Part shown: positions 34,110 through 35,984 of the stretch, piece after piece | How positions within the stretch are numbered: the stretch's first letter is position 1 | Layout: every line of letters begins with the position of its first letter | NCBI GenBank assembly: GCA_902768605.1 | Contig: CACXLY010000004.1 | Location: forward strand, 1-64,000 | Direction: 5' to 3' | DNA from: an uncultured Bacteroidales bacterium | Lineage (GTDB): Bacteria > Bacteroidota > Bacteroidia > Bacteroidales > Bacteroidaceae | DNA length: 64,000 nucleotides | The notes under the pieces: generated by a model | Database searches by the model: none | What the model saw: the letters and a program-made list of their open reading frames with translations, nothing else | What the model was told of the DNA's origin: nothing | Program-made: the position numbers and the translations under genes

Positions 34110-35984
34110 TTAGTCCAGCTTGAGCACGGCGAGGAAGGCTTTCTGCGGCACTTGCACGTTGCCTATCTGCTTCATGCGTTTCTTGCCTTTCTTCTGCTTT
34201 TCGAGGAGTTTGCGCTTACGGCTCACGTCACCGCCGTAGCACTTTGCCAGCACGTCCTTGCGCACCTGCTTCACCGTCTCGCGTGCGATAATCTTGGCTC
34301 CGATGGCGGCCTGTATGGCGATGTCGAACTGTTGGCGCGGCAGGAGTTCCTTGAGCTTCTCGCACATTCGGCGGCCAAAGCTCTCGGCGTTGTCGAAATG
34401 CGTCAGTGTGGAGAGTGCATCGACGGGTTCTCCGTTGAGCAGGATGTCCATCTTGACGAGCTTGCTGGGCCGGTAGCCGGCCTGATGATAGTCGAAGGAA
34501 GCGTAGCCCTTCGAGATGCTCTTGAGCTTGTCGTAGAAGTCGATGACTATCTCGCCCAAAGGCATCGCATATTGCAGTTCCACTCGGTTTCCGCTGATGT
34601 ATTCCTGCTTCAGAAGCTCGCCTCGCTTGCCCAGGCAGAGCGTCATGATGGGCCCGATGTAGTTGGCCGTCGTGATGACGGAAGCATGGATGTATGGCTC
34701 CTCGATGTGGTCGATGAGCGTCTGGTCGGGCATTCCGCTGGGGTTGTGCACCTCCTGCATCTGCCCTTGCTTGTCGTAAACGAGGTAGGAGACGTTTGGG
34801 ACGGTGGTGATGACGTCCATATTGAACTCGCGGTCGAGCCTCTCCTGAATGATTTCCATGTGCAGGAGGCCGAGGAAGCCGCATCGGAAGCCGAACCCCA
34901 GCGCCACGGAGCTCTCGGGCTGGAAGGTGAGACTGGCATCGTTGAGCTGCAGCTTCTCGAGCGAAGCACGCAGGTTCTCGAAGTCCTCCGTCTCGATGGG
35001 ATAGACGCCGGCGAAGACCATCGGCTTGACCTCTTCGAAGCCCGAAATGGCTTCCTTGCAAGGGTTCTCCACCGTAGTAATCGTGTCGCCCACCTTCACC
35101 TCGGTTGCCGTCTTGATGCCCGAAACGATGTAGCCCACGTCGCCGCAATGCAGCACCTGCCGGGGCACCATATCCATCTTCAGGACACCGATTTCGTCGG
35201 CCTTGTACTCCTTGCCCGTATTGATGAACTGCACCTGGTCGCCGCTCCGCATAGAGCCGTTGACGATTTTGAAGTAAGCGATGATGCCGCGGAAGGAGTT
35301 GAAGACGGAGTCAAAGATGAGGGCCTGCAGGGGCGCCTTCTCGTCGCCTTTGGGACAGGGAATACGTTCCACGACGGCTCTGAGAATCTCCTCCACGCCC
35401 ATGCCCGTCTTGCCGCTTGCCCGGATGATTTCCTCGCGCTTGCAGCCGATGAGGTCCACAATTTCGTCCTCCACCTCCTCGGGCATCGCATTCGGCATAT
35501 CGCATTTGTTGATGACGGGGATGATTTCGAGGTCGTGGTCGATGGCCATGTAGAGGTTGCTGATGGTTTGAGCCTGAACGCCTTGCGTAGCATCCACCAC
35601 CAGCAGGGCGCCCTCGCAGGCTGCGATGCTTCGGCTCACCTCGTAGCTGAAGTCCACGTGTCCCGGAGTGTCGATGAGGTTGAGGATATAAGACCCACCC
35701 CGTCCCTCCCTTAAAGGGAGGGAGTCTTTCGTGGAGAGGCAATCGCTCGACGAAGCAGACTCGCCTGCTTTCTCCCCCTTTAAGGGGGAGTTAGAGGGGG
35801 TCCACTCCATCTGTATGGCGTGGCTCTTGATGGTGATACCACGCTCTTGCTCCAAGTCCATATCGTCGAGCATCTGCCCCTTGGTCACGGCGATGGTCTT
35901 CGTGTACTCCAGCAGACGGTCTGCCAGGGTGCTTTTCCCGTGGTCGATGTGGGCGATGATGCAGAAATTCCTGATGTTTTGCAT
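34110..35984 (-). CDS. lepA: Elongation factor 4 (LepA) with an in-frame repeat insertion
   Basis: The 624-aa ribosomal back-translocase GTPase has P-loop AHIDHGKSTLADRLL, DLEQERGITIKSHAIQ, DTPGHVDFSYEVSRS and NKCDMPNA. The C-terminal LepA domain ends with GNVQVPQKAFLAVLKLD. Bacterial LepA is usually near 595-600 aa; the excess here is a segment after IKSHAIQMEW reading TPSNSPLKGEKAGES ... DSLPLREGRGG. It is encoded by the palindromic element at 35692-35802, just before YILNLIDTPGH in the GTPase domain. The frame is intact, so the element has probably been tolerated as a surface loop. A TAACTTTG box lies at 36005-36012. Confidence 0.97.
   Translation of the reverse strand: MQNIRNFCIIAHIDHGKSTLADRLLEYTKTIAVTKGQMLDDMDLEQERGITIKSHAIQMEWTPSNSPLKGEKAGESASSSDCLSTKDSLPLREGRGGSYILNLIDTPGHVDFSYEVSRSIAACEGALLVVDATQGVQAQTISNLYMAIDHDLEIIPVINKCDMPNAMPEEVEDEIVDLIGCKREEIIRASGKTGMGVEEILRAVVERIPCPKGDEKAPLQALIFDSVFNSFRGIIAYFKIVNGSMRSGDQVQFINTGKEYKADEIGVLKMDMVPRQVLHCGDVGYIVSGIKTATEVKVGDTITTVENPCKEAISGFEEVKPMVFAGVYPIETEDFENLRASLEKLQLNDASLTFQPESSVALGFGFRCGFLGLLHMEIIQERLDREFNMDVITTVPNVSYLVYDKQGQMQEVHNPSGMPDQTLIDHIEEPYIHASVITTANYIGPIMTLCLGKRGELLKQEYISGNRVELQYAMPLGEIVIDFYDKLKSISKGYASFDYHQAGYRPSKLVKMDILLNGEPVDALSTLTHFDNAESFGRRMCEKLKELLPRQQFDIAIQAAIGAKIIARETVKQVRKDVLAKCYGGDVSRKRKLLEKQKKGKKRMKQIGNVQVPQKAFLAVLKLD
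35692..35802. repeat. Paired palindromic element inside lepA
   Basis: The left box is GTCCCTCCCTTAAAGGGAGG and the right box CTCCCCCTTTAAGGGGGAG, with outer ends GACCCACC and GGGGGTC. The element is 111 bp, exactly 37 codons, and contains no stop in the lepA frame. Confidence 0.8.

Follow-up and report, generated by a model that had tools for sequence, protein, structure and literature searches.

The lepA gene of an uncultured Bacteroidales bacterium carries a pair of GC-rich palindromic boxes within its reading frame. This locus raises the question of whether such boxes are mobile elements that enter protein genes, and by what means. The first-pass annotation of the surrounding stretch of DNA (64,000 nucleotides; hereafter the window) had proposed boxes of this kind in lepA, in malQ, between obgE and pgeF, and inside pgeF.

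Hairpin boxes at four places in the window

The box has a GACCC head, then a C-run and a G-run with a short A/T centre between them, and it is present at all four named places. The outer end in malQ had been described incorrectly, as the left end there reads GTCCC and not GACCC. The window (G+C content 52%) contains six strict cores, starting at positions 30784, 30843, 35704, 35774, 56420, and 56488, compared with none in 50 dinucleotide shuffles of the window. Looser boxes of the GACC[CT] type were found five times, against a mean of 0.12 and a maximum of 1 in 50 dinucleotide shuffles. The window boxes are real and far above chance.

An insert in a loop of LepA

The lepA gene (elongation factor 4; 34110..35984, minus strand) encodes a protein of 624 aa that scores 971 bits against TIGR01393. 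The left box of the pair (35692..35726, plus strand; GACCC...GGGAGTC) reads DSLPLREGRGGS on the coding strand, and the right box (35772..35802, minus strand; CTCCCCC...GGGGGTC) reads TPSNSPLKGE. Relatives came from an ObgE scan in which 80 loci were kept, with titles that were nearly all uncultured rumen or gut Bacteroidales, Bacteroidaceae, or Prevotellaceae; only 12 of these loci reached lepA. In the alignment with these 12 relatives, the insert spans residues about 62–98 of the window protein. The proposed gain at this site was borne out: nine of the 12 relatives, and thus 9 of 13 genes, lack any insert and encode LepA of 593 aa each, 31 residues shorter than the window protein. The other four genes (window, L009, L013, and L017) have inserts at one point, all of them different, and the usual TLDGQK-type turn is missing from all four. 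Orthologues sharing the same segments had been named as evidence that would speak against insertion. To the extent that this was tested, which was in part, the same loop holds differing segments or none, and this indicates recurrent gain rather than one shared ancestral segment.

The insert point maps between residues 68 and 71 of the solved LepA chain 5imq. The AlphaFold model of the window protein is weak (mean pLDDT 64, with residues 66–95 below 50) and places the insert between strands 56–61 and 99–104, which hints that the insert region may be a flexible loop. The loop was surveyed in 121 parsed sequences, namely the window and the 120 best of 8000 scored matches, picked by likeness to the insert-bearing region. 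This sample, which is biased to insert carriers, contained 61 distinct loop segments, 57 exceeding the 29-residue short form, and some of the long loops were not box-derived. One LepA in this material (P0005, 706 aa) has part of the G domain duplicated, possibly through an assembly or gene-call error.

Two separate boxes in MalQ

The malQ ORF (4-alpha-glucanotransferase; 54618..57173, minus strand; 851 aa from a TTG codon) scored 406 bits with profile NF011081, below its cut-off of 556, and 204.5 with TIGR00217 (cut-off 205.65). Two neighboring loops of MalQ hold one box each, and the boxes flank host sequence. The box of the first loop (56486..56511, minus strand; CTCCCCC...GGGGGGTC) reads TPQPPLGGE on the coding strand, and that of the second loop (56410..56437, plus strand; GTCCCCCC...GGGGGAGC, with a degenerate end) reads LPLKGDGGT. 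The DNA between them (56438..56485) is mostly host sequence, VRWEEGPNRQSP with its neighbors, and lies outside any element; VRWEEGPNR or a near match occupies this position in 13 of 13 aligned relatives. Therefore, the 102 bp that had been taken for a single insert is not an insert size. In other relatives, the same MalQ loops contain other inserts. A Bacteroidales-1 RNA (RF01693, suggested 6S RNA) adjoins malQ at 57288–57455 on the plus strand.

Boxes at gene junctions

The pair at 30774–30866 had been described as a plain insert in a gene, upstream of pgeF; it proved to be an element at the junction of obgE and pgeF. The box at the 3' end of obgE (30842..30866, minus strand) contains CCCCCTAAC, which gives the ObgE stop codon (NWTP-stop). 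The inner segment (30799..30841, minus strand) holds ATGTCAGAG... with the start codon of the pgeF frame. Behind this new start codon, the box at the 5' end of pgeF (30774..30798, plus strand) is read in frame as LPLKGDGGS. Among 15 relatives compared, only L002 has boxes at this junction, and its arrangement is like that of the window, with two boxes and an inner segment carrying a new pgeF start. The two genes overlap in 10 of these 15 relatives (read by eye), a spacer separates them in L001, L004, and L015, and pgeF is not adjacent to obgE in L008. Inside pgeF, the pair at 30270..30315 (GACTCCCCATTAAAGGAGG...GAGAGTC) is indeed a related box pair, but it looks decayed, and a less decayed version is found at the same place in L003. 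It lies in a hypervariable loop: the segment before WHIDLWEAN differs among almost all relatives, and in L003, L008, L009, and L014 it resembles a box.

Similar arrangements were found at other genes. Eighteen ORFs of at least 120 aa have a box-derived N-terminus in the LPLKG frame according to their predicted starts, 12 of them with a second box upstream, and five more ORFs have such an N-terminus in another frame (predicted starts as well). In 5 of the 18 cases, the window included and L160 counted in place of L163, the upstream ORF stops inside the left box (-TP-stop); in L159, L174, L190, and L195, the upstream stop abuts or overlaps the first bases of this box. Nine proteins with a box-derived N-terminus were scanned with profiles. 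RimO, FolK, LeuC, and LptB exceeded the curated cut-offs, with the profile beginning at residue 18–30, whereas an ABC ATPase (L159), a flavoprotein (L087), L190, and L174 remained below the cut-offs, and the scan of L193 gave no match. Some of the 18 ORFs, for example L093 and L099, may be spurious. L193 and L195 (folK) have exactly the same inner start, ATGTCAGAATCCAA, and L196 (leuC), L002, and the window have one resembling it. Since unrelated genes share the same or a similar inner start, an inner segment is able to travel, unlike the sequence between the two MalQ boxes, which belongs to the host.

Distribution and layout of the box family

Genomes were searched with the strict pattern GACCC-N(1-14)-CCCCCT-N(1-4)-GGGGG, and the reversed pattern served as the control. 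This genome-wide search, which the annotation had suggested, revealed a family with 4–150 matches in each of the 14 close genomes (4, 129, 35, 44, 10, 5, 20, 41, 150, 23, 88, 92, 55, and 4), where the control gave 0 matches. In a wider draw within the family, 51 of 301 genomes matched, centre genome included, most with few matches. A draw within the class gave 3 matching genomes of 149, again with the centre genome, and the other two had one match each. In these wider family and class draws, the control gave a few single matches. Matches were also present in 9 of 36 further relatives, but in none of the five named isolates among these 36 (Segatella copri, S. baroniae, Prevotella sp. P5-92, Hoylesella enoeca, and H. 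buccalis). The box family is clade-specific, a local burst. A search of literature text found neither the four box strings nor PLKGDGG, and no title describing such elements in Bacteroidetes or Prevotella; most subscription papers and all preprints lie outside its coverage.

The arrangement of the boxes was determined with a loose pattern in 724 kb of the genomes G009 and G011, taken as 40 stretches chosen for box density. This bulk sample contained 135 boxes, a few of which probably match by chance. Neighbors within 160 bp faced outward in 27 cases and inward in none; 14 were tandem and 3 more overlapped. Most commonly, a unit is made up of two outward-facing hairpin boxes that enclose an inner segment, which is short or variable. 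Lengths divisible by three, which had been noted as common to the window pairs, are not a general rule, as the remainders 0, 1, and 2 occur 11, 5, and 11 times among the 27 outward pairs. Of the 135 boxes, a simple ORF call places 78 within ORFs, 12 partly within, and 45 outside, and in 16 of 17 cases a box at the N-terminus is antisense to its gene; ORFs of at least 130 aa cover 0.863 of the bulk-sample DNA from these two genomes. Strict A-type boxes are depleted in ORFs, with 42 of 77 outside ORFs of at least 130 aa. Antisense A-type boxes within ORFs read LPLKG in 20 cases and use the other open frame in 3. At L191:7632-7835, one box is present in seven tandem copies within a 110-aa ORF.

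A 66-bp subtype within coding sequence

One subtype was sought with a 41-base composite pattern spanning two boxes, with up to 3 mismatches allowed. The composite was found in 36 copies in 10 of 16 genomes (control 0), and in the family draw in only 4 of 301 genomes, centre included. Thirty of the 36 copies were fetched; 28 lie inside ORFs of at least 130 aa and 2 outside. The in-frame reading of the boxes, as proposed for LepA and MalQ, is supported. The 28 copies share one frame per orientation: 17 are sense and give TLSNSPLKGEDSLPLREGWGGS or variants of it, and 11 are antisense and give DLPQPSLKGRESSPFKGELERV or variants of it. In the consensus unit, as read by eye, the other frames hit TAA or TAG. 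The frame is therefore imposed by the unit itself and does not prove that the peptide is under selection. The unit is exactly 66 bp (22 codons) long in 22 of 25 measurable copies, the rest being 68, 68, and 81 bp, so for this subtype the multiple-of-three length does hold. In 24 of 25 copies, an A precedes the unit and a T follows it. None of 24 units had an adjoining direct repeat of at least 3 bases, with 0–2 extra end bases allowed, that would indicate a target-site duplication.

The 30 fetched copies represent 25 distinct sites, as five pairs are the same site in two species. Of these sites, 23 are in ORFs, which is not above the ORF fraction of 0.863 (p = 0.31); this share exceeds a model with one-third (p = 0.005) or less in-frame survival only. 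For host identification, 18 proteins were searched against Pfam, where L232 and L244 had no match at 1e-8. The hosts include LeuRS, HisRS, a topoisomerase, two UvrD-type helicases, an acyl-CoA dehydrogenase, an outer membrane efflux protein, a radical SAM protein, and an RNA uracil methyltransferase, which we take to be RlmD-like. These host genes are unrelated to each other.

The divergence of the unit was summed over four orthologous pairs. Two pairs are not part of this sum: L221/L222, whose flank is shifted in register, and the LeuRS pair, in whose unit 3 codons are changed. In 88 codons of the unit, there were 2 synonymous and 2 other codon changes, compared with 62 synonymous and 30 other changes in 240 codons of the flanks (Fisher test on synonymous changes, p = 9e-8). 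This low divergence could equally result from slow change, from gene conversion, or from recent re-insertion. The codon changes are too few to conclude selection on the encoded peptide. A histidine kinase-like ORF (identified by eye; L235:25-1758) contains about nine tandem SPSPTGEG-type repeats and a 66-bp unit.

Re-use of the same loops

The LeuRS loop was compared in 16 gene copies. The 66-bp unit is present in two of them, an AGCCTCC-type box pair in one, tandem repeats in one, and a further insert in one, and the other 11 are shorter alleles. Relative to the short allele of G012, the carriers of the 66-bp unit have lost the seven codons between AAG and TCC. The tandem repeats (STNKQLVNS, in L280 of G011) occupy the loop that carries palindromic cassettes in sister species. 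For RlmD, 14 of 15 matches were entered, of which 11 were parsed. In two of these, the 66-bp unit takes the place of about ten codons, and two others have longer loops of other kinds. The alignments show that native loops have been replaced and not simply extended, with different inserts in the same loop of sister species.

Search for a partner gene

Beside the 135 boxes of the two draft genome samples, the same ORF was seen at most three times: 136 adjacent ORFs formed 12 clusters of 2–3 members, none larger, and the members identified were ABC ATPases, ADOP permease, and PmbA-type protease. Two candidates were examined and rejected. The first was RAYT (PF01797). Y1 genes are present in 7 of 14 genomes, and no locus is directly flanked by GACCCCC boxes. 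They are absent from the draft genomes G009 (150 boxes, the richest), G008 (41), and G013 (55). Of the 17 Y1 loci in the 14 genomes, 13 gave no match to a C/G box within the stretch fetched. Weaker hairpins lie close to the gene in L111–L113; L111 has in addition a GACCC box at a distance of about 1.3 kb, and at L124 a box pair lies about 700 bp away. Among seven loci read by eye, L115, L116, and L120 contain RAYT-like genes with GCGGATTTGCAATCCGC-type repeats alongside, a separate repeat system in the same genomes. The other candidate, the four-helix-bundle/23S IVP protein (PF05635), was found in 20 of 20 genomes, but only 7 of 30 copies had a C/G hairpin match in the stretch fetched around them. 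A hairpin lies within 700 bp of 3 of the 30 copies (L135, L137, and L150) by a rough count in which the frame is often wrong.

Origin of the boxes

We consider it likely that the boxes are a clade-specific family of small, non-autonomous, protein-compatible palindromic repeats that spread to new sites. Their layout, the recurring ends, and the number of copies all point to a mobile unit. Copies would spread to new sites, and the survivors would be those in protein loops, in tight gene junctions, or between genes. In loops, the open frame of the element would add a short Pro/Gly/Lys-rich segment in place of the native loop. At junctions, the left box could supply the upstream stop, and the inner ATG together with the right box could supply the downstream N-terminus. 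The copies may be moved, as hairpin-forming units, by a trans-acting enzyme; our first guess is one of the HUH/Y1 type, possible but rather doubtful. The tags are presumably translated, and selection against disruption would explain the positions where copies occur. The units are far less diverged than their flanks, which speaks against this explanation, as simple transposition followed by decay does not predict it. Also against it are the lack of a target-site duplication in the 24 units, the negative search for a partner gene, the share of 66-bp sites in ORFs, which is no higher than the ORF fraction, and the depletion of A-type boxes in ORFs. A broader proposal, plausible but one that we would not yet favor, is that the boxes form a mobile palindromic cassette class adapted to coding sequence: 22 codons with one open frame per strand, swapping loops or gene starts, where different families repeatedly rewrite the same essential-enzyme loop in sister species.

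Other origins were weighed against the same observations. Ordinary REPINs moved by a resident RAYT (TnpA-REP) enzyme would share the layout of paired inverted hairpin boxes with a spacer (PMC3116915, available part), and RAYT subclass 2.6 is specific to Bacteroidetes and has atypical flanking structures (PMC6006769, available part). However, the ends are GACCC/GGGTC and not GTAG or CGTC, Y1 genes occur in just half of the close genomes and not in the box-rich G009, 13 of the 17 Y1 loci lack a C/G box in the fetched stretch, and L115, L116, and L120 stand beside other repeats; we regard this origin as unlikely. The boxes might also spread, and remain alike, through ectopic gene conversion or template switching at hairpins during replication, with no dedicated transposase. 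Replacement of native loops instead of mere interruption, absence of target-site duplication in the 24 units, near identity of orthologous copies within diverged flanks (Fisher p = 9e-8), inner segments shared by unrelated genes (folK of L195 and the L193 gene), and the existence of tandem box arrays all fit such a process. The same ends in 22 of the 25 copies of the 66-bp unit look instead like a defined transposable unit, and as a full account we find gene conversion or template switching improbable. Nevertheless, copies may also recombine with each other, as is suggested by loop replacement, the lack of target-site duplication, the homogeneity of the copies, and the sharing of inner segments.

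The boxes could be kept for a function, either as RNA hairpins tuning expression or as functional peptide loops, as the low divergence of the 66-bp unit between orthologues and the boxes at gene junctions might suggest. The same loop has different or no inserts in sister species, and the host proteins are unrelated, which makes this very improbable. An assembly or binning artefact might be suspected because the close relatives, judging from their titles, are nearly all metagenome-assembled. We give this almost no weight: the same elements are present in assemblies of different projects, they are in frame, and orthologous copies have diverged flanks.

Relation to known repeats

For the preferred reading, a clade-specific family of spreading repeats, Rickettsia palindromic elements and in-gene REPs serve as models. 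The former are palindromic repeats in frame in unrelated genes, where they add a peptide, with several families per genome (PMC10969869, available part). The likeness drawn by the annotation holds as an analogy: the boxes are also in frame in unrelated genes and absent from some orthologues (LepA, 9/13; RlmD; LeuRS). The resemblance drawn is one of mode. The Rickettsia elements are about 150 bp long (PMC10969869, available part), compared with 66 bp for the unit described here, and belong to another phylum. Unlike them, the boxes replace loops, sister species have different inserts in the same loop, and junction pairs supply stop and start codons.

REPINs likewise consist of two inverted hairpin boxes with a spacer and occur in many copies (PMC3116915, available part), as do the boxes (27 outward and 0 inward neighbors; 36 copies of the composite). 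The GTAG/CGTC tag of REPINs is absent here, where the ends are GACCC/GGGTC, and REPINs have a cognate RAYT, whereas no association was found at the 17 Y1 loci of the 14 draft genomes. Some REPs are inside ORFs and supply stop codons, and different REPs are found near the same place in Xanthomonas recB genes (PMC3733652, available part). REPs are mostly intergenic according to the same text; here, 42 of 77 A-type boxes and 2 of 30 copies of the 66-bp type are outside ORFs. MITEs, for example in Coxiella, are small non-autonomous repeats able to fuse to ORFs (PMC10969869 and PMC5896051, available parts). For a MITE of a DDE transposon, a target-site duplication and a parent transposon would be expected; the former was not seen in 24 units, and the latter was not found beside the boxes in the two genome samples. 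In PARCELs, palindromic DNA coincides with a coding repeat, which forms amphipathic domains of 25 residues in tandem; the ORFs concerned have no assigned function, and many have membrane-targeting sequences (PMC2996958, available part). The boxes are instead single cassettes in enzyme loops.

Going by the available parts of PMC10969869 and PMC3733652, in-gene palindromic elements are best known from Rickettsia, in addition to scattered in-gene REPs; the burst described here is in Bacteroidota. Many sister species differ as to which cassette is in which loop, which makes the question of how a repeat becomes a protein segment testable by comparison and proteomics. Loop lengths and N-termini in these rumen genomes should be read with caution, as they are partly repeat-derived.

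Other elements in the window

Single boxes of a related type (CCCCTCC..GGAGGGG) are present at 15713–15728, 22830–22845, and 27749–27764, apparently in intergenic DNA, and two of the three have a AGCCTCCCC-type head. Further palindromic repeat families (ACATGTACTTGCAA, CACGTGGGAA, and CACGAATTGCACGAATT) were observed at 2523–2632, 23177–23262, 40769–40827, 54505–54548, and 61203–61285. The window also encodes a type II Cas9 at 47126–50773 on the minus strand (TIGR01865, 457.6 bits).
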